Assembly (NCBI GenBank): GCA_016177005.1
Contig: JACOWC010000056.1
Coordinates: 1 to 47,887 of the forward strand
DNA length: 47,887 nucleotides
Origin: Methylocystis sp.
GTDB taxonomy: Bacteria > Pseudomonadota > Alphaproteobacteria > Rhizobiales > Beijerinckiaceae
Direction: 5' to 3'
Shown: positions 332 through 45,434 of the stretch, in pieces
Numbering within the stretch: the stretch's first letter is position 1
Layout of the letters: each line of letters opens with the position of its first letter
Notes under the pieces: model-generated
Told to the model about the DNA's origin: nothing
The model's input: only the letters and a program-made list of their open reading frames with translations
The model's database searches: none
Made by a program: the position numbers and the translations under genes

Positions 332-489
332 CGAAGCTTGCCGCGCTTGCATCCCTTTGCAGCAACTTCACCCCACTTTCGCCGGGAGCGCCTATAAGCC
401 TGGAACGGCTCGGCCTCGCCCTCATCCAGCCCAGTATACGGCTCCTATTGGCCCCGTCCCGGTTGCGACAATCTGCTTTACGCCTTCAG

Positions 490-596
490 CCGTTTCCAGC
501 CTGTCGTTGCCAAATGCAGATAACGGTCGATTCCAAAAGTTTAGAGCGCGCTTTACACGAAAAACCGGATGCTGCTTTTTCCGCGCGCCGCGCTCC
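490..596 (+). repeat. Twin-hairpin palindromic element, copy A (left hairpin degenerate)
   Basis: gcagataacggtcgattccaaaagtttagagcgcgctttacacgaaaaaccggatgctgctttttccgcgcgccgcgctcc matches copies B-E. Confidence 0.75.
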
Positions 597-34508: not shown

Positions 34509-34892
34509 AGCTACCTCTTTTCGCCTTTGGCGCCGACGCTTTAGACGCCGCCATCTCGCGCGTTTTTAAGCGAAATCGCCAGCCGCGCGGACGGCTGGCG
34601 AGCGCTGCGGCTTCTGGTGACATATTGTCGCGAAACCGCAATTTTGAGCCCGATCCGCTTGACCGGCCGCCAGCTCGAACGCTAGCTGCCGGCGAAGGGT
34701 TCGATGCATACACATTCGGTTGCGCCTGCGGCGAACCGACGCAATCGAACCGACGGCGCATGGCGCGCCTCTTGCGGGAGCCTGTTGGAGACGCAGGCCG
34801 CGCGACGCTTCGCAAAGCAACCGTCTCGTTGAATGTCGCTCCTGATGCGATCGCCGGCGCGCAGCGGTTGCGTGCGACTATGAGGTTTTCTG

Positions 34893-36549: not shown

Positions 36550-36668
36550 TTAGATCACGCTGCGTTTAGGCGAATCGCCTGAACGCGGATGACGTGATCG
36601 ATTCCAAAAACTTAGAGCGCGCTTTACGCGAAAAACCGGCGTCCACTTTTTCGCGAGCCGCGCTCTGG
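36550..36668 (+). repeat. Twin-hairpin palindromic element, copy B
   Basis: ttagatcacgctgcgtttaggcgaatcgcctgaacgcggatgacgtgatcgattccaaaaacttagagcgcgctttacgcgaaaaaccggcgtccactttttcgcgagccgcgctctgg. Confidence 0.92.
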
Positions 36669-36743
36669 CCGCTTTGGCCCGGCTGTCGGTTTTTTTGGCC
36701 GGTCGCGTTATGATAGAGAAATGACGAAGGAGATCGCCGCGCC

Positions 36744-37520
36744 ATGGCGTTGGAAGTCGCGCAGTTCATCTGCCTCAACGATAATTTCGGCCTGCTCGTC
36801 CATGAGCCGGAGCTCGGCGCGACCGCAAGCGTCGACGCGCCCGACGGCGAAGCGATCGCCAATGAGGCCGAGCGGCGCGGCTGGCCGCTGACGCATCTGC
36901 TGCTCACGCATCATCACGCCGATCACGTGCAGGGAACACAGACGCTCAAAACGCGCTTTCCGCACATGAAGGTCATCGGCGCCGCCAAGGATGCGCATCG
37001 ACTGCCGCCGCTCGATCGCGCGGTTTCAGAAGGCGACGTCGTCGAAATCGGCGAAGCGCGCGCGCGCGTCATCGAAACGCCCGGCCATACGCTCGGACAT
37101 ATCGCCTATTACTTCGAGGACGATGAAATCGTGTTTGTCGGCGACACGCTGTTCTCGCTCGGCTGCGGACGCGTTTTTGAGGGCACCATGGACATGATGC
37201 ATCTCACCCTCGAAGCGCTCGCCAATTTGCCCGGGGAAACGCTGGTCTATTGCGGCCACGAATATACCCAGGCGAACGCCAAATTCGCGCTCACCGTCGA
37301 CCCCGAAAATTCGGTGCTGCGCGCGCGGGCGCAAACCGTCGCCGATCTGCGCAAGGACGGAAAATTTACCCTGCCGACGACGATCACGCTCGAGAACGCC
37401 ACAAATCCGTTTCTGCGGGTCGAGGATCCGAGCGTAGCGGCCGCGATGGGCATGCGGGGCGCGGACCCTTCCGCGGTTTTCGCGGCGATGCGCGAGCGCA
37501 AGAACAAATTCGCCGCATGA
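36744..37520 (+). CDS. gloB: Hydroxyacylglutathione hydrolase (glyoxalase II)
   Basis: THLLLTHHHADHVQGTQTLK...ETPGHTLGHIAYYFEDDEIVFVGDTLFSLGCGRVFEGT. Confidence 0.95.
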   Translation: MALEVAQFICLNDNFGLLVHEPELGATASVDAPDGEAIANEAERRGWPLTHLLLTHHHADHVQGTQTLKTRFPHMKVIGAAKDAHRLPPLDRAVSEGDVVEIGEARARVIETPGHTLGHIAYYFEDDEIVFVGDTLFSLGCGRVFEGTMDMMHLTLEALANLPGETLVYCGHEYTQANAKFALTVDPENSVLRARAQTVADLRKDGKFTLPTTITLENATNPFLRVEDPSVAAAMGMRGADPSAVFAAMRERKNKFAA

Positions 37521-38086
37521 CGGGCGCGCTTTCGACGCAGGAGGTGGTGCGGCTTCTCGATCTGGCGCCCCATCCCGAGGGCGGCTTCTATCGCCAGACG
37601 TTTCGCGATTCCTCGTCGGTGGGCGGCGGCCGCGCCGCCTCGACGGCGATCTATTATCTGCTCTCCGGCGGCGGAGTCTCCGCCTGGCATCGGGTCGACG
37701 CCGCCGAAGTCTGGCACTTCTACGCCGGCGCCACGCTGGAGCTTAAGATCGCGACGTTAGATCACGCTGTGTTTAGGCAAAATCGCCTAAACGCAGATGA
37801 CGTGATCGATTTCAAAAGTTTAGAGCGCGCTTTGTGCGAAAAACCGGATTCCACTTTTTCGCAGCGCGCTCCAGGCGCGCCGACCGAAATCCTGCGACTT
37901 GGCGCCGAGCTCGGCGCTGGCGAGCGGCCGCAAGCCGTGGTCCCCGCAGGCGTCTGGCAGTCGGCGAAAAGTCTCGGCCGGGGTCCCGACGAATGGACTC
38001 TCGTCGGCTGCACAGTGGCGCCGGGCTTCGAATTCGCCGGCTTCGAACTGGCGCCGGCGGATTTCTCGCCCGACTGTTCAGCTTGA
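37517..38086 (+). CDS. DUF985-type cupin protein carrying an in-frame palindromic-element insertion
   Basis: MTGALSTQEVVRLLDLAPHPEGGFYRQTFRDSSS...VWHFYAGATLELKIAT-[LDHAVFRQNRLNADDVIDFKSLERALCEKPDSTFSQRA]-PGAPTEILRLGAELGAGERPQAVVPAGVWQSA. The ORF-list entry starts upstream at 37250; ATG at 37517 overlaps the gloB stop. Confidence 0.9.
   Translation: MTGALSTQEVVRLLDLAPHPEGGFYRQTFRDSSSVGGGRAASTAIYYLLSGGGVSAWHRVDAAEVWHFYAGATLELKIATLDHAVFRQNRLNADDVIDFKSLERALCEKPDSTFSQRAPGAPTEILRLGAELGAGERPQAVVPAGVWQSAKSLGRGPDEWTLVGCTVAPGFEFAGFELAPADFSPDCSA
37757..37872 (+). repeat. Twin-hairpin palindromic element, copy C (in frame inside the DUF985 cupin)
   Basis: ttagatcacgctgtgtttaggcaaaatcgcctaaacgcagatgacgtgatcgatttcaaaagtttagagcgcgctttgtgcgaaaaaccggattccactttttcgcagcgcgctcc. 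Confidence 0.95.
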
Positions 38087-38173
38087 ACGCAAAGGCGTTC
38101 AGCCCATCGGGGCTTTGACCGGCCCGGCGGATAGTGTATCGGGTCGCAGACAAGAAAAAGAGGAAATGCCTGG

Positions 38174-39013
38174 ATGTGCTGGAGTGGAGAGGCGTCAACG
38201 GTGTTGGCGGCGACGGGGATCGCCGGCGCGGCCTATTCGGCGCTCAAGAAAGCCCCCGAACCGCTCGCCCTCTGGGTCTGCCTTCTCTATTTCGCCAGCA
38301 TGGAGTCGCTTCAGGCGGTCGCCTATTCGGTCTTAAACCAATGCGACTCGCCGCTAAATCAATTGATGACCATGTTTGGTTATCTCCACATAACCTTCCA
38401 GCCTTTCTTCATTAACGCCGTCGCGCTCTATTTCATGCCCAAAGACAGCGCCAGGATTATCGCGCCCTGGGCCTATTTCGGCTGTTTCGTCGCGGCCATC
38501 GCCATGCTGCTCCAGCTCTATCCCTTCGCCTGGGCTGGCCACTGCGCCCTGGGAAGGCCGTTGTGCGGCGACGTGCTGTGCACGGTGCGCGGCGAATGGC
38601 ACATCGCCTGGCTGCTGCCGACCAACGGACTCGGCAACTCCATGGCGGACAACGCCTATCTCGGGCGCGGCTACATCGAATATCCGCTGATGGCCTTCTA
38701 CATTCCGTCGCTTTACGGCAGCTGGCGATTCATCCTGTTCTCCTGGGTCGCCGGGCCGTTCCTGGCGAGTCTGACCACCGGCAACATCAATGAATGGCCG
38801 GCGGTCTGGTGCCTGTTCTCGATCGGGCTGGTGCTCGCCATCATCAAGACCCCGTTGCGTTACCACCTGCATGTCGGCGATCCGTGGTGGATGATGCTTT
38901 ATAAGTGGTGGAAGCGGCGGAAAGCGGCCGCCAAGGCCGCCGTCGCCGCCGCGCCCGTACGCCCGGCCGAACCCGCCGCTCTCATCGCGGAAATCAAAGA
39001 GCCGGCGGAATAG
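38174..39013 (+). CDS. DUF5765-type multispanning membrane protein
   Basis: MCWSGEASTVLAATGIAGAAYSALKKAPEPLALWVCLLYFASMESLQAVAYSV...; multiple TM helices. Confidence 0.8.
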   Translation: MCWSGEASTVLAATGIAGAAYSALKKAPEPLALWVCLLYFASMESLQAVAYSVLNQCDSPLNQLMTMFGYLHITFQPFFINAVALYFMPKDSARIIAPWAYFGCFVAAIAMLLQLYPFAWAGHCALGRPLCGDVLCTVRGEWHIAWLLPTNGLGNSMADNAYLGRGYIEYPLMAFYIPSLYGSWRFILFSWVAGPFLASLTTGNINEWPAVWCLFSIGLVLAIIKTPLRYHLHVGDPWWMMLYKWWKRRKAAAKAAVAAAPVRPAEPAALIAEIKEPAE

Positions 39014-40012
39014 TCAGTCTCTCGCGTTGACGACGCCGCCGACGAGATTTTCGGCGAGCAGCGACTCCGTGGTCACGCGGGCGGGCAGAGGCTCGCGTGT
39101 CGCGCCGGCCTCGATTGTCGCGAAATAGTCGCGACGGGCGGCGACCGCCTCATCCCAATCCACGGCGCGAAAAGACAGGTCTTCGCCGGGACGCAATTGC
39201 GCCAGCCGTCCGAGATCGGCGCCGATGACCGTCGCAATTTTCGGATAGCCGCCGGTCGGCTGGCGGTCCGCCATGAGCGCCAGCGGCGCGCCGTCGCCGG
39301 GAATCTGGATCGCGCCCATGGCGACGCCGTCGGAAACGATGTCATGTCCGCTGAGGTGCCGGATGGACGGACCCTCGAGCCGATAGGCCATGCGATCGCT
39401 GCGCGCGCCGATGCGCCAGCGCGCGTTCAAAAAGCGCTCGATCTCCTCGGGCGCGAAATAATCCGCCTGAGGTCCGAGAAGCAGGCGGATCGGCGCGGCG
39501 CTCGGCGCGAGCCAAGGCGCAGCCAAGGCCAGCGGCTCGAGAGGCGCCGGGCCGGCCGCCGCGAGCGTCAGCGCGTCGCCCGCAGCCAGCGGTTTTGGCC
39601 CCAGCCCTGAGCGGGCGTGCGTCGCGCGCGAGCCGAGGATGGGCGCAAGGTCGAGCGCGCCGCCGACGGCGACATAGCACCAAGCCCCCGAGGCGCCGGC
39701 GCGCAGCGAGAGCCGCGCCTCCGGGGCAAGCGGCAGCAGAGAGGCCGACGGCAGCGGCCGGCCGTCGAGCCGAACGTCGAAATCGCCGCCCGCGACCGCG
39801 ACGCCAAGCGTCGCGCCTTCCGCCCGAAACGTCGCGCCGCCAAGCGACACTTCGATGGCGCTGTCGGCGCCGGCGGCGCGCGTCGCGGCGAGATAGGCGC
39901 CAAGATCCATCGGCCCCGCCGGCGTCACGCCGTAGCGCGAGCGCCCGAAGCGGCCCTCGTCCTGAATGGTGACGCCGGGTCCGGCGGCGTCGACAAGCAG
40001 CCGCGCGCTCAC
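39014..40012 (-). CDS. pxpC: 5-oxoprolinase subunit PxpC / allophanate hydrolase subunit 2-like (GTG start overlapping the pxpB stop)
   Basis: LLVDAAGPGVTIQDEGRFGRSRYGVTPAGPMDLGAY...; GTGA overlap at 40009-40012. ORF-list entry runs upstream in pxpB. Confidence 0.9.
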   Translation of the reverse strand: MSARLLVDAAGPGVTIQDEGRFGRSRYGVTPAGPMDLGAYLAATRAAGADSAIEVSLGGATFRAEGATLGVAVAGGDFDVRLDGRPLPSASLLPLAPEARLSLRAGASGAWCYVAVGGALDLAPILGSRATHARSGLGPKPLAAGDALTLAAAGPAPLEPLALAAPWLAPSAAPIRLLLGPQADYFAPEEIERFLNARWRIGARSDRMAYRLEGPSIRHLSGHDIVSDGVAMGAIQIPGDGAPLALMADRQPTGGYPKIATVIGADLGRLAQLRPGEDLSFRAVDWDEAVAARRDYFATIEAGATREPLPARVTTESLLAENLVGGVVNARD

Positions 40013-40746
40013 TGGAGCGCTTCCCGGCGCGCCACCGTCTCGCCAGCCGCGGCGCGCGCGTCGAGCGTCCGGAAAGTCTCGGCGTCGATCGGCTCGAAAC
40101 GCGCCGCGTCGCCCGGCGCGGCAAGAAAAGGCGGATCGCGCCGCGGCGCGAACATGCGTTCTGGCGTTCGCCCGATGACATACCAGCCGGTCGGCATCGG
40201 ATTGGCGGCGATCAGAGAGAGCGCGCCGCCGATCAGCGCCGCGCCCTGCGGCGTCGCGCCGCGCGGGCTGGCGCGCCTTGGAATCGCTAAGGCCTGCGGC
40301 AAGCCGCCGAGATAGCACCAGCCCGGCGCGAACCCATACATGTAGACGCGATAATCGGCGCCGGCATGCAACCGCGCCAGCGATGGCGCGGAGCGCCCGA
40401 GCAGCGCCGCCGCCTCGTCAATATCCTCAGCGAACGCGGGGTCGTAGCAGCAGGGAATCGTCCAGCGCACGGCGGGGCGCGACAGTTTCGCCTCAATGTC
40501 GGCAGGCGCGAGCAGATTTTCGATCGCCGCGACCAGCGCGTCGCGCGAAATTTCGAGCGGTTCATAGCGCAGCAGCAGCGCTCGGTATGTCGGCGTCGTC
40601 TCGCGCAAGCCGGGCGGCGGCGCAGCGCGAAGATGCTCGTCAAGCGTCAGCACGCGCGCATTGATTGCGGCGTCGACGCTGTCGCCAAATTCGACTGAAA
40701 GCGCCGCTTCGCCGCAATCAAGAAAACGCGGCGTCTCATATTTCAT
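40009..40746 (-). CDS. pxpB: 5-oxoprolinase subunit PxpB
   Basis: FLDCGEAALSVEFGDSVDAAINARVLTLDEHL...VYMYGFAPGWCYLGGLPQALAIPRRASPR. Confidence 0.92.
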   Translation of the reverse strand: MKYETPRFLDCGEAALSVEFGDSVDAAINARVLTLDEHLRAAPPPGLRETTPTYRALLLRYEPLEISRDALVAAIENLLAPADIEAKLSRPAVRWTIPCCYDPAFAEDIDEAAALLGRSAPSLARLHAGADYRVYMYGFAPGWCYLGGLPQALAIPRRASPRGATPQGAALIGGALSLIAANPMPTGWYVIGRTPERMFAPRRDPPFLAAPGDAARFEPIDAETFRTLDARAAAGETVARREALQ

Positions 40747-40751
40747 GAGAT

Positions 40752-41528
40752 TCAGGCTCCTGCGAAGGCGCGCAGCGCCCAGCCGTCGCGTTCCAGCGAT
40801 CCGCGCAACCGCCGCGCCATTTCGACGGCAAGCGGCGCGTCGCCGTGGACGCAGATCGAATCAATCGGGGTCGGCAAAAGCTTGCCGCTGACGGTCCTCA
40901 GCCCGCCGTTCGCGAGCATGTCGCGCACGCGGTCGCAGGCTCGTTCAATATCCTCGATGACCGCGCCTTCCTGCGATCTTTGCTGAAGGCGCCCGTCATC
41001 CACATAGGCGCGGTCGGCGAAGATTTCATTGATGACGCGCAAGCCTGCGCGCGCGCCGGCGCGTGTCTGTTCAGACAGGGCGATCGCAAGCAGGGTGAGC
41101 GACGGGTCGACGCCGCGAACCGCGCAAGCGATCGCGTTCGCGACGTCGGCGTCGCGCTCGGCGATATTGGCGAGCGCGCCATGAGCCTTCACATGCGTGA
41201 TCCGGTGTCCGCTCAAGCCGGCGAGCGCCTGGGCCGCGCCGAGCTGGTAGGCGACGGCGCGTTCGATCTCGCGTGCGGTCATCGGCAGGGCGCGCCGGCC
41301 GAATCCCGCAAGATCGGGAAAGGCGACATGAGCGCCCACGGCGACTCCCTTTTCCTTGGCGCGCGCAAATGTCGTCGCCATGATGTCGGGGTCGCCGGCG
41401 TGGAAGCCGCACGCCACATTGGCGCTCGTGACAATGTCGAGCATGGCGTCGTCGTCGCCGATGCGCCAGCGGCCGAAACCCTCGCCAAGGTCGGCGTTAA
41501 GATCGATGGTGCGGGGGGTAGGGGCCAT
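40752..41528 (-). CDS. pxpA: 5-oxoprolinase subunit PxpA (LamB/YcsF family)
   Basis: IDLNADLGEGFGRWRIGDDDAMLDIVTSANVACGFHAGDPDIM. Confidence 0.95.
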   Translation of the reverse strand: MAPTPRTIDLNADLGEGFGRWRIGDDDAMLDIVTSANVACGFHAGDPDIMATTFARAKEKGVAVGAHVAFPDLAGFGRRALPMTAREIERAVAYQLGAAQALAGLSGHRITHVKAHGALANIAERDADVANAIACAVRGVDPSLTLLAIALSEQTRAGARAGLRVINEIFADRAYVDDGRLQQRSQEGAVIEDIERACDRVRDMLANGGLRTVSGKLLPTPIDSICVHGDAPLAVEMARRLRGSLERDGWALRAFAGA

Positions 41529-41746
41529 GAGGATACAAGTCGCCTATCGATGTGGATCGCGAGATTGGCGCAACCGCGCCATGCCGGCAAACTGCGGCGC
41601 TTGACGCAGTCGAGGCGGCGCAAAAGGGCGCAACCCGGCACAAATAGGGCATGGCGGCGCTTGACAAAGACTGTCCCCTTTGGTGAAGCTGTATCGCGGC
41701 GAAGCCGGAAAAAAAGCCACTGGCTGGCGCAATGTGGGAGGAAAAC

Positions 41747-41821
41747 ATGCAATATCTGATCCCGGGACTCATGCTCGCTATCGTCATCGGCGGCGCTATC
41801 GTCGCCATGCGGATGAAGTAA
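41747..41821 (+). CDS. 24-aa single-TM small protein
   Basis: MQYLIPGLMLAIVIGGAIVAMRMK*; strong SD gggagga about 6 nt upstream; cttgaca at 41660-41666; terminator-like hairpin downstream. Confidence 0.5.
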   Translation: MQYLIPGLMLAIVIGGAIVAMRMK

Positions 41822-41855
41822 GCTCAAGAAATCACGACGTTTCTCGTCATATACG

Positions 41856-41910
41856 GTCCGTTGGCGGGCAGCGGCCCCGCGTAAACGCGGGCGCTATTGC
41901 GCCAGCGGAC
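41856..41910. other. Structured branched/extended hairpin
   Basis: gtccgttggcg/cgccagcggac outer stem; agcg/cgct and cccgcg-taaa-cgcggg inner stem. Confidence 0.55.
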
Positions 41911-41912
41911 TG

Positions 41913-41952
41913 AGCTGATCAGCGTCAGCGACTGTCGCGTGGATCAGCTTTT
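41913..41952 (+). terminator. Rho-independent terminator-like hairpin downstream of the 24-aa ORF
   Basis: agctgatc ... gatcagct followed by TTTT. Confidence 0.55.
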
Positions 41953-41989
41953 GTCGCCCTACCGGCGACGATCTCCTCTTCAGCGTCGC

Positions 41990-44050
41990 CTATTCCGCTG
42001 CGATTACCCGCGGCGGCGTGAAGGCAATTTCGATCAGCGTGCCTTCGTTACGACTGCTCTTGACGCTGAAGGAGGCGTGATTCGCCTCGATCAAAGCCTT
42101 TGTCAGCGGCAGTCCAAGCCCCGTGCCGCTCGCCTTGCGCGCAGTGTCCACCCGCCGAAACGGTTCGAGCGCGGTTGCGACATCCTCCTCCGACATGCCG
42201 ATCCCGGTGTCCTTGACGCGAATGACGACAGCGCCGGCGTCATTGAGCGCGCTCGATACGATGACCTGCCCGCCCGGTTCGTTGAACTTCACCGCGTTCG
42301 ACAGAAGATTGAGAAGGATCTGCTTTAGGGAGCGCGGATCGGCGCGCAGCGGCGGCAGGCTCGGCGCAAGCGCCAAGCGCAAGACGACGCGCGCCTGATT
42401 GGCCTGCGCCTGCATCATCGACGCGCATTCGGCGATAACCGCATTGGCGTCCACGCGCGCGAAGGAAAGCTCCATCATGCCGGCTTCGATCTTGGAGAGG
42501 TCAAGAAGATCGTTGACGAGCGACAGGACATGCGCGCCGGAGGCGTGCATGTCCTTCAAATATTCTTTGTAGCGCGGAGAGCCGAGCGGCCCGAGACGCT
42601 CTTCCATCATCACTTCGGCGAAGCCGATGATGGCGTTGAGCGGCGTGCGAATCTCATGCGATACGCGGGTGAGAAAATCGGATTTCGCCGCATTGGCGCT
42701 TTCGGCGGCAAGCCGCGCCGCTTCAACCGCGGGGTCGCTTGAAGAGGCGCCTTCTTGCGCCTCGACCGACACGAGGAAGGTCGGTTTTCCCTCGACGGCA
42801 AGCGGGCGCAGCGCGAGGTCAACGGGAGCGCCGCCGGGCGGCGCCCGGGACAATGACAGTCGCGCGCGCGCGCCCGATAGAGCGCGCTGCGAAAAAGCTG
42901 AATCCGGTTTTTCGTCATCCGCACTTGGGCGATTCCGCTCAAATGCAGCGTGATCCAAAACCACGGACATGCGCTGAGCCAGGCTCTGCGCGTCGGAGGG
43001 GCTGAGGAGAGAGGCCAGACTGCGGTTCTCGCAGTCGCGCGCATCGGCGCCAAAGCATGCCGCGAACCGCGCATTGGCCCTCACGATCATTCCCTCAGCG
43101 GTCATGATCGCCAGCGGCGCGCCCGACAGGTCGAAAGCCGCGCCAAGCAGCGCGTTGTCCGATTTCGCCCGCGCGAGCCTCTCTTCGAGCGCGCGAGCGA
43201 GCGCCAAGGCGCTTTGCTCCGGACCCGGGGCGAGAAGTTCGCGGTTGCGCGGCGGCGTGGTCGGTTGATGCGTCTCCGGCGTGTCTTGTTTCGATTCGAG
43301 AGTGGCGGCCGCGTCCGACGCAATGATGCCGCCTTCCTTGAGCGTTCGCGCGATTTCATCGAAAGCCAATCGCTCGCTCGAGCTGAGCGACTCCAGCGCG
43401 TCCGATGCGACGCGCGGAGAAGATGGCGCGCGCAGCGCTACGACGTTGTCCCCTGACGCGCTAAAGGCGCTCCCTTCAGAGTTCGAAGCGCCGACAGCCT
43501 CCGCCGGCGGCTCGGCGGCGCCGCGCAATTCTTGCGCAGGCGAATCTGCGCGAACGCCGAGCGCCGCGATAACGAAAGAGACGCCGCTCTCCGTCTCCAG
43601 GCTGCGGCAAAGAAAGCTGAGCGTTTGCGCCGCGCCCACGAAGCCAAAGCGCAGTCGTTCAAGGCGCAGGCCCTGGTCGCTGCGCAGTTCGCCGACAAGC
43701 GCCGCCAGTCGGCGTGCGCCGGCATCGTCGTCGCGCAACAAGCGCTCGCCTGGAGCGCTTTCCGACCGGACGGAATCGTCTAGTCGATAAGAAATCGCTC
43801 CAGATTCAAAATGCTGGAGCAAAATCTTGTCGAAAAAGTCTATCAACTTTTTCGGATTTTGCTCTAGCGCTCCTACGTCCTCGCCAAAGACGGCGCAGGC
43901 TGAATCGTTGAGAAAATCGATGCGCAGGGGATCGCCGCTGGCGACGACGACCGGCGCGCCGGAGGCGTCAAGAGCAGAAAAAACAGGATCAGCCGCGACG
44001 CAAGCGGCTGCGCGCGCGCTGTGTTCGAGCTCCTCTTGCGAACCGCCCAT
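41990..44050 (-). CDS. PAS-domain hybrid-less sensor histidine kinase with two palindromic-element-derived inserts
   Basis: FLTRVSHEIRTPLNAIIGFAEVMMEERLGPLGSPRYKEYLKDMHASGAHVLSLVNDLLDLSKIEAG; LLNLLSNAVKFNEPGG; GTGLGLPLTKALIEANHA. Likely start MGGSQEELEHS at 44050; the ORF extends to 44149. Confidence 0.88.
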   Translation of the reverse strand: MGGSQEELEHSARAAACVAADPVFSALDASGAPVVVASGDPLRIDFLNDSACAVFGEDVGALEQNPKKLIDFFDKILLQHFESGAISYRLDDSVRSESAPGERLLRDDDAGARRLAALVGELRSDQGLRLERLRFGFVGAAQTLSFLCRSLETESGVSFVIAALGVRADSPAQELRGAAEPPAEAVGASNSEGSAFSASGDNVVALRAPSSPRVASDALESLSSSERLAFDEIARTLKEGGIIASDAAATLESKQDTPETHQPTTPPRNRELLAPGPEQSALALARALEERLARAKSDNALLGAAFDLSGAPLAIMTAEGMIVRANARFAACFGADARDCENRSLASLLSPSDAQSLAQRMSVVLDHAAFERNRPSADDEKPDSAFSQRALSGARARLSLSRAPPGGAPVDLALRPLAVEGKPTFLVSVEAQEGASSSDPAVEAARLAAESANAAKSDFLTRVSHEIRTPLNAIIGFAEVMMEERLGPLGSPRYKEYLKDMHASGAHVLSLVNDLLDLSKIEAGMMELSFARVDANAVIAECASMMQAQANQARVVLRLALAPSLPPLRADPRSLKQILLNLLSNAVKFNEPGGQVIVSSALNDAGAVVIRVKDTGIGMSEEDVATALEPFRRVDTARKASGTGLGLPLTKALIEANHASFSVKSSRNEGTLIEIAFTPPRVIAAE
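42879..42958 (-). repeat. Twin-hairpin palindromic element, copy F (shortened, in frame inside the histidine kinase)
   Basis: Minus strand ttggatcacgctgcatttgagcggaatcgcccaagtgcggatgacgaaaaaccggattcagctttttcgcagcgcgctct; lacks the 36-nt central segment of copy C. Confidence 0.88.
43752..43872 (+). repeat. Second-type twin-hairpin palindromic element, copy G (in frame inside the histidine kinase)
   Basis: ggagcgctttccgaccggacggaatcgtctagtcgataagaaatcgctccagattcaaaatgctggagcaaaatcttgtcgaaaaagtctatcaactttttcggattttgctctagcgctcc; two hairpins with the same GAAT loop and CGAAAAA/TTTTTCG arms. Confidence 0.85.
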
Positions 44051-44126
44051 GTGCCCTACACCGCCGCGACCGATGGCCGCTCGCCGCGCGCCTGTCAGGC
44101 GTCTCTCGCCCCGACGCCGATCGCGC

Positions 44127-44230
44127 CGCCTTTGGGCGGAATCGCCCAAGGGCAGATAACGTGATCGATCTCAATAGCTTAGAGCGCGCGCTCACGCGAA
44201 AATCCGGTTTTTTCCTTTTCGCCGCGCTCC
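44127..44230 (+). repeat. Twin-hairpin palindromic element, copy E
   Basis: ccgcctttgggcggaatcgcccaagggcagataacgtgatcgatctcaatagcttagagcgcgcgctcacgcgaaaatccggttttttccttttcgccgcgctcc. Confidence 0.88.
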
Positions 44231-44344
44231 AACGAGACGCCAATAAATTAATAGTGGTCGAATGCAAGGTCCACGATCGCCCATCGGACTTCCATATATT
44301 TTTGCATGGCCCGAAGCCTCGGCGCCTGCTGCGGCGCACAAAAT

Positions 44345-44359
44345 TGTTGCGTCGCAACA
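44345..44359. promoter_or_regulatory. Perfect palindrome TGTTGC-GTC-GCAACA upstream of the phasin genes (candidate PhaR-type operator)
   Basis: tgttgcgtcgcaaca, 15 nt, about 115 nt upstream of the phasin ATG. Confidence 0.5.
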
Positions 44360-44473
44360 TAAAATGAGGCAGAATGATTGAGCTCGCCGGATTCGCCGTG
44401 GGGCCGGGCGCTACGCGGGTGATAATAGTCTAGCGCGGCGATTGTTTCCTTATTCAGGGCACGGAGGTGCGCT

Positions 44474-44830
44474 ATGGTCGAGTCGATATACCAAATTCCC
44501 ACCGAGGTCCGCGATTTCGCGGAAAAAAGCGTCGAACAGGCGCGCAAGGCTTTTGACGGGTTCGCCGGAGCCGCGCAGAAGGCGCTCGACACTTCGGCGG
44601 ATATCCCGTTCGGGCTGCCGAGCGCCAAGGGCGTGAGCACGAAGGCTCTGTCTTTCGCCCAGGCAAACGTCAACGCCGCCTTCGATCTTGCCCAGAAGCT
44701 TGTCCACGCCCAGGACCCTCAGGAAGTTTTCAAGCTTCAGTCGGAATTCGTGCAGGCGCAGCTCAAGACGATCCAGGAACAGACTCAGGAGCTTGGCGCG
44801 ACCTTTCAACGGTCGACGACGAAGTCCTAA
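44474..44830 (+). CDS. Phasin family protein
   Basis: VRDFAEKSVEQARKAFDGFAGAAQKALDTS...ALSFAQANVNAAFDLAQKLVHAQDPQEVFKLQSEFVQAQLKTIQEQTQELG. Confidence 0.93.
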   Translation: MVESIYQIPTEVRDFAEKSVEQARKAFDGFAGAAQKALDTSADIPFGLPSAKGVSTKALSFAQANVNAAFDLAQKLVHAQDPQEVFKLQSEFVQAQLKTIQEQTQELGATFQRSTTKS

Positions 44831-44844
44831 CGGGGAGAAGTTGA

Positions 44845-45306
44845 ATGGCCAATCCGCAGAACGGTTCCCCCAAATCCAAACATTCCGAAATCAAACGTCC
44901 GGCTCCTGGCGCCAAGGAAACTGACGCCCTTCCGGTCGCCAGCGAAGCCGTCGGCGCGGAGCCTGCGCCGGTCGTGATTGAAGCGCAAACGACGACGGTC
45001 GAGCAGGCGCCGTCGACGGCCCTGGCGATCGCCGTAGAGGTAAAGTCGGCGCGCGCCGAGGAATTCGACCCAACGCTCTGGTCGCAGAAGTCGATCGACC
45101 TTTGGGCCGAAAACGCCACCGCGGTTCTCGACTTCGCCGAGCGGCTCGCCAACGCCAAATCGATCGATGAGGTGACCAGTCTTCAGTCGCGTTTCGCGAG
45201 CGAACGGTTCGACACGCTGCTGCGTCATTCGAATGAATTGCTCACGCTCGCGCAACGTCTGTTCGGTTTCTCCATCGCGCCGCTGTACGGCACGCGCGCG
45301 GCGTAA
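44845..45306 (+). CDS. Phasin-like family protein
   Basis: LWSQKSIDLWAENATAVLDFAERLANAKSIDEVTSLQSRFASERFDTLLRHSNELLTLAQRLF. Confidence 0.8.
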   Translation: MANPQNGSPKSKHSEIKRPAPGAKETDALPVASEAVGAEPAPVVIEAQTTTVEQAPSTALAIAVEVKSARAEEFDPTLWSQKSIDLWAENATAVLDFAERLANAKSIDEVTSLQSRFASERFDTLLRHSNELLTLAQRLFGFSIAPLYGTRAA

Positions 45307-45313
45307 GCGCCGG

Positions 45314-45434
45314 TTTAGAGCGCGGCTCGCGAAAAAGTGGATGCCGGTTTTTCGCGCAAAGCGCGCTCTAAGCTTTTGGAGTCGATCACGTCATCTGCGT
45401 TTAGGCGATTCCGCCTAAACGCAGCGTGATCTAG
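45314..45434 (-). repeat. Twin-hairpin palindromic element, copy D (inverted orientation)
   Basis: Reverse complement ctagatcacgctgcgtttaggcggaatcgcctaaacgcagatgacgtgatcgactccaaaagcttagagcgcgctttgcgcgaaaaaccggcatccactttttcgcgagccgcgctct. Confidence 0.95.

Follow-up and report, generated by a model that had tools for sequence, protein, structure and literature searches.

Twin-hairpin palindromic elements of Methylocystis insert at TA dinucleotides and are probably mobilised by an IS630-type transposase

A stretch of 47,887 nt (hereafter the window) from a Methylocystis-like metagenome-assembled genome (GenBank assembly GCA_016177005.1, contig JACOWC010000056.1; 2.06 Mb, 65% complete; G000 below) carries several copies of a dispersed twin-hairpin palindromic element. 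An earlier note on the window had described copies A to F of this element, had set a second type of copy apart from them, and had proposed an active or recently active non-autonomous family. Comparison with related genomes shows that the copies are insertions, polymorphic in presence among Methylocystis species, that they add 2 bp beyond their own length, consistent with a duplicated TA target, and that insertion occurs at TA with a preference for (C/T)TA(A/G) (YTAR). With a probability of about three in four, the family consists of non-autonomous, TA-inserting miniature inverted-repeat transposable elements (MITEs) mobilised by an IS630-type transposase.

The check proposed in the earlier note, a covariance model search of the genome and its relatives, was run, and copy number, orientation and target duplication were tabulated. 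The model (R1) was built from 19 copies, B and D among them, and detects copies A to F and the second-type copy in the window with E from 1e-29 to 3e-6 (Table 1). The remaining matches in the window (E≤0.1) were antisense or overlapping echoes at these copies and two of low significance, at position 34718 (E 0.013) and at position 43424 (E 0.026); positions 596-34717 gave no R1 match at E≤0.1, in keeping with the statement that the hup locus is free of copies. The consensus unit reads TA-GATCACGC..hairpin 1..CGTGATCGATTCCAAAAGYTTAGAGCGCG..hairpin 2..GCGCTC-TA. The twin hairpins and the conserved linker between them are as first described, whereas the terminal unit, originally given as starting with GATCACG, is corrected to GATC...GCTC between TA dinucleotides, the left end being GA(T/G)C over the copies. 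Among 144 blast rows for element ends, 68 partial rows, 10 that were duplicates or lay at locus ends, and L051, for which the right end was not found, were dropped. In the set of distinct copies (n = 59), which leaves out matches without clear ends and repeated flanks, 43 are 112 or 114 bp long, and a transposase gene is absent from the element. In the second type the linker GATTCAAAATGCT replaces GATTCCAAAAGCT and hairpin 2 is built alike; these likenesses make it a diverged sister that shares the main family's architecture, and not an unrelated family.

The joined flanks of 20 G000 copies were searched in 10 relatives, and an unambiguous empty site was found for 13 of them; the other seven were left out as unresolved (L010 had no match, L013, L014, L015, L021 and L022 were ambiguous, and L020 showed an element relic in relatives). 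The positions are thus not fixed in all relatives. At seven of the 13 empty sites (L002, L003, L006, L016, L023, L026 and L030) at least one relative has TA at the exact point at which the filled genome shows TA[element]TA or a version of this differing by one base. Net lengths of the window copies point to the same addition of two bases. The site of copy B is empty in most relatives, with a net insertion of 115 bp (113+2), and is also empty in G001, where an oppositely oriented element lies about 75 bases away. The flanks of copy C are 2-3 bp apart in 11/29 relatives' loci, the other junctions being too diverged to place the ends; the empty site is CAG or CAA and the net insertion 114 bp, the element plus 2. 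Copy D is missing from G018 and G032 (net 116 = 114+2 bp), and copy E from G018, G027 and G032, with a net 112 bp against an expected 113. For copy F the net length is 78 bp (76+2) relative to G001, G018, G027, G032, G035 and G024, and 75 bp relative to G036, G004, G022 and G014. The second-type copy gave a net 114 bp, again the element plus 2, in all 15 aligned loci from 10 genomes; its empty site reads GCGTTAGCGAA and the filled site GCGTTA[GAGC..GCTC]TAGCGAA. In a 400-kb comparison of G022 and G024, main-family copies were few (1 partial and 2), and of 20 indels of 40-400 bp one was main-family and five were, by eye, second-type elements or parts of them, which shows the second type moving. 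At the site of L020, a short relic (TAGATC plus a few bases) was seen in relatives (L202, L203 and L209), which suggests decay of an older shared copy.

The insertions are younger than species splits with ~5-20% divergence in the flanks, and the proposal of a recently active family holds to this extent; however, the closest pair among 34 full-length G000 copies is 97.4% identical, three element-bearing genomes lack a match to the IS630 transposase domain PF13358, and present activity is unproven. Two other modes of insertion were considered. A 4-base YTAR duplication in the style of IS5 was rejected because the element keeps its first G and last C even at targets without these bases (e.g. L003 and L030). 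For a zero-base duplication, with TA carried on one element end, TA-target sites do not discriminate, and the non-TA sites point both ways (the left side equals the empty site at L011, the right side at copy C).

Among the 59 distinct copies, TA flanks the element on the left in 43, on the right in 44 and on both sides in 34; within the last group 26 lie in YTAR and 12 in CTAG. In a 400-kb stretch of G024 the corresponding background was 12.9% and 2.6% of all TA, and CTAG is under-represented in the window (14 found vs 36 expected). At L326 (G007:C1:2547400-2547950) three head-to-tail copies are joined by single TAs and are followed immediately by another TAGAGC-bounded palindromic repeat, as if the TA at an element end had itself been the target.

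Duplication of a 2-bp TA is a hallmark of IS630/Tc1-mariner transposases. TA-flanked inverted ends of the form GA(G/T)C, starting GAGC, were found at 6/30 IS630 (PF13358) loci and at 0/30 IS5-type (PF13340) loci, and the IS630 ends GAGCGCG (L268) and GAGCACG (L271) agree with those of the element, GAGCGCG and GATCACG, in 7/7 and 6/7 positions. An IS630 of ~1,050 bp is joined to the element by one TA at L271 (1383-2431), another of ~1,050 bp adjoins a diverged twin-hairpin element across one TA at L259 (1383-2432), and at L258 a twin-hairpin element lies a few bases from an IS630; the pairs at L271 and L259 may be a composite or a shared target. PF13358 is present in 30/39 congeners. Taken together, the TA duplication and the IS630 ends TA-GAGC fit IS630/Tc1-mariner transposition of a non-autonomous MITE. 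The earlier note's proposal of a non-autonomous family is borne out by the TA duplication, the polymorphic syntenic sites and the occurrence of both orientations. In the mechanism proposed here, an insertion sequence (IS) provides a transposase of the IS630 family (Tc1/mariner-like), which would recognise the GAGC-type ends, excise the element and join it to TA; the palindromes would matter for this movement, either in the DNA ends or through folding of a single strand, and not for the host after insertion, and in-frame landings in tolerant gene regions would persist as extra protein segments.

Several observations weigh against this assignment. The terminal inverted repeats are short and do not match each other fully (GATCACG vs GAGCGCG), and no autonomous IS with matching ends longer than 6-7 bp was found among the examined IS loci. 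Six of the 13 empty sites are not TA (L004 CA, L008 TG, L009 TG, L011 GA, L018 TT and L024 TG), each being one base off, and that of copy C is CA(G). PF13358 had no match in the element-bearing genomes G035, G036 (rated 100% complete) and G012, where the mobiliser may have been lost or may be another IS. A further point comes from the IS5/IS427 type, to which IS711 belongs. IS711 likewise makes a TA duplication at YTAR sites and has the Bru-RS palindromes of Brucella among its insertion sites (PMC3163539, PMC2266754). That the same MITE is moved by such an IS711-like transposase, targeting YTAR and duplicating TA, would suit the presence of DUF4096 transposases in 36/39 congeners, including PF13358-negative G035 and G036, and is nevertheless judged unlikely: none of the 30 IS5-type loci has the TA-flanked ends seen at IS630 loci, the clearest IS5-type ends start AGAGTC or GGGCCTGT, and DUF4096 had no match in G000, an incomplete assembly.

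The earlier note had named a RAYT (REP-associated tyrosine transposase, also TnpA_REP) as a possible partner, and a REP (repetitive extragenic palindromic) or REPIN-type element moved by such a Y1, HUH transposase would indeed be palindromic, dispersed and of high copy number, with head-to-tail clusters in some genomes. Y1 transposases are not known to leave a target duplication. This route is disfavoured because of the 2-bp TA duplication upon insertion, atypical for Y1, and because Y1_Tnp, found in 9/39 congeners, is absent from 30/39, including the most copy-rich one, G007; the single Y1_Tnp of G000 has an internal stop. Nor do the element ends, TA-GATC and GCTC-TA, carry the GTAG or CGTC tag described in PMC3733652, and we give a RAYT origin almost no credence.

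A structured RNA or DNA element that benefits the host (a terminator, mRNA stabiliser or protein-binding site) and is kept in place by selection would be expected to show deep covariation, which is what the palindromes show. In hairpin 1 (20 pairs), comparison of three sequences between Methylocystis and Sinorhizobium gives 4-5 pairs changed on both sides, 0-1 changed on one side and 1-2 broken. In a set of 30 matches drawn from the order and from Sinorhizobium plasmids, aligned by fitting to the model, which favours the model pairing, 96.1% of cells pair, 32/36 pairs change on both sides and 250 cells are two-sided; pairing falls to 32-41% when the partner is slid by 1-3 columns, and covariation in 32/36 pairs was reached in 0/500 shuffles. 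Two Methylocystis subfamilies likewise differ at two compensated pairs, position 12 with 33 and position 16 with 29. One-sided G-U cells between genera number 19 (summed per-pair rows) against the 250 two-sided ones, and this rarity makes a DNA palindrome fit better than an RNA. Within the two largest subfamilies, hairpin 1 of resident copies has 44 one-sided changes (27 pair-breaking and 17 G-T) vs 8 compensated. In a separate count, of the 2,508 cells in 68 copies placed on a consensus fold, 170 are unpaired, 80 are changed on one side and 17 on both. Since resident copies thus decay largely uncompensated, at changing sites, these data favour selection of palindromy at transposition and not at the resting site. 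Compensation between lineages and its near absence within resident copies allow selfish maintenance to be told apart from host function; copies B and D do lie near gene ends, yet the positions are polymorphic and patchy and Rfam gave no match within the window, and a host-beneficial element is considered very unlikely.

Copy numbers were taken preferably from a search with the linker as a 26-mer (≤3 mismatches), which misses copies with diverged linkers; the reversed pattern served as control. G000 has 65 linker matches, 34 forward and 31 reverse, so that both orientations occur as had been noted, and G007, with 112, and G001, with 29, stand beside 19/39 genomes of the genus without any; the control gave 0 throughout. 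Chance is excluded for G000 because 65 matches stand against 0 for the reversed pattern and blastn recovers at least 41 copies, such blastn counts being lower bounds from 14-40 candidates scored per genome. At E≤1e-5, blastn found the element in 25/61 genomes, namely G000 and 24/36 congeners, and in 0/24 genomes of other families. In three of the blastn-positive congeners (G002, G011 and G030) the locus fetched per genome held nothing of the element but a fragment resembling hairpin 2, in the same place in each, and a solo hairpin-2-like palindrome (L052, L053 and L054) occupies a locus common to three congeners without a linker match. The 25-base linker occurs without mismatch in 14 named stretches, which belong to Methylocystis, Beijerinckiaceae or unspecified alphaproteobacterial records. 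R1 at E≤1e-6, applied across the order with 12 candidates per genome and strict filters, detected the element in at least 27/297 genomes, in 22/122 sampled genera. A separate search of a plasmid collection matched 72 of 72,556 records, 67 of them from Sinorhizobium and 2 from Methylocystis.

The kinds of element to which this family belongs, IS630-type MITEs and RIME-like repeats, are known already, and the Methylocystis family is a new, well-documented member. RIME, the Rhizobium-specific intergenic mosaic element of Osteras et al. 1995, is reportedly 108 bp long with two large palindromes, and the Methylocystis element matches this size and plan. Sinorhizobium megaplasmid repeats resemble it in their twin hairpins and linker (GTGATCGATTCnAA..GTTAGAGCG), in length (109-111 bp) and in ends that are TA or close to TA, at ~71-78% identity, and are probably RIME, judged by the description of RIME and not by a published RIME sequence. 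A difference is that the Methylocystis family is not confined to Rhizobium, its copies being dense in Methylocystis and spread over the order as given above. The family may in this sense have been catalogued before, but no description of the RIME mechanism was found: by title and abstract opening, with most subscription papers outside the scope, no paper on this Methylocystis family or on a TA-duplicating RIME mechanism was retrieved. RIMEs and similar rhizobial intergenic repeats are described as being of unknown function (PMC2573895). The empty sites reveal the insertion mode of RIME-like elements (TA, within YTAR) and point to a testable enzyme class. According to PMC2229807, RUP of pneumococcus is a 107-bp element with a TA target and terminal inverted repeats like those of IS630-Spn1; the Methylocystis family resembles such IS630-linked MITEs in size, copy number, TA target and a genus IS630 with related ends, and is unlike RUP in matching IS630 over 6-7 bp only, in its two hairpins with strong covariation, and in that some hosts have no detectable IS630. 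Bru-RS1 and Bru-RS2 of Brucella, 103-105-bp palindromic repeats (PMC2267715), are alike in size, palindromy, order (Hyphomicrobiales) and internal YTAR sites used by an IS, by description and not by sequence. Rickettsia palindromic elements (RPE), again compared by description, are inserted in genes and share in-frame insertion with copies C, F and the second type, and differ in their CGTC tag (PMC3733652) as against the TA and GATC/GCTC bounds found here.

It is possible, if doubtful, that a single superfamily of twin-palindrome MITEs dependent on IS630 extends over the order and takes in the Methylocystis element, the second type and the RIME-like repeats of Sinorhizobium. The arms would vary freely in sequence yet stay perfect DNA palindromes because the palindromes are required and renewed at transposition, for instance when excised ends are repaired on a hairpin template. 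Such a superfamily, if real, would account for how RIME-type repeats move and would add them to the sources of in-frame protein segments. At four loci from other families of the order (L322, L323, L319 and L325) hairpin 1 has bounds of its own, GAGC..GCTC-TA, in most cases preceded by TA, and each hairpin resembles a minimal IS630-type unit.

Table 1. Copies of the palindromic element in the window.
Feature	Position	Strand	Description	Evidence
Copy A	467..595	+	degenerate: left hairpin decayed, hairpin 2 intact	R1 57.4 bits, E 2.6e-11
Copy B	36553..36665	+	full-length, intergenic, upstream of glyoxalase II-like gene (Pfam); left TA, right TG	R1
Copy C	37760..37871	+	full-length, inside Cupin_5 (DUF985) gene 37517-38086; left TA, right CA	R1, Pfam
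Copy F	42880..42955 by ends (R1 match 42864-42955)	-	internally deleted, 76 bp; TA and CA flanks	R1
Second-type copy	43753..43864	+	112 bp, sister family	R1 E 1.1e-7
Copy E	44119..44229	+	diverged full-length, upstream of histidine kinase gene	R1 E 4e-19
Copy D	45318..45431	-	best full-length; TA at both ends; just downstream of phasin gene 44845-45306 (Pfam)	R1 E 1.3e-29
Copy D hairpin 1	45384..45431	-	20 pairs, interrupted	
Copy D hairpin 2	45318..45368	-		

Copy F, described from the start as shortened, is accordingly listed as an internally deleted copy. A reading-frame survey over the G000 copies was noisy (4/30 loci not located, many chance open reading frames (ORFs) across the junction), and statements on intragenic copies are limited to the three confirmed ones in the window (C, F and the second type), in all of which the frame stays open. 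Copy C adds 38 codons in frame to a Cupin_5 protein, and the Pfam match spans the insertion. Such in-frame copies offer a route for gaining ~38 codons in one step. The ORF at 41990-44149 (-), encoding a PAS/HisKA/HATPase histidine kinase, is lengthened in frame by 38 codons through the second-type copy and by 26 codons through copy F, and this single gene thus holds two different palindromic insertions that are absent in relatives.

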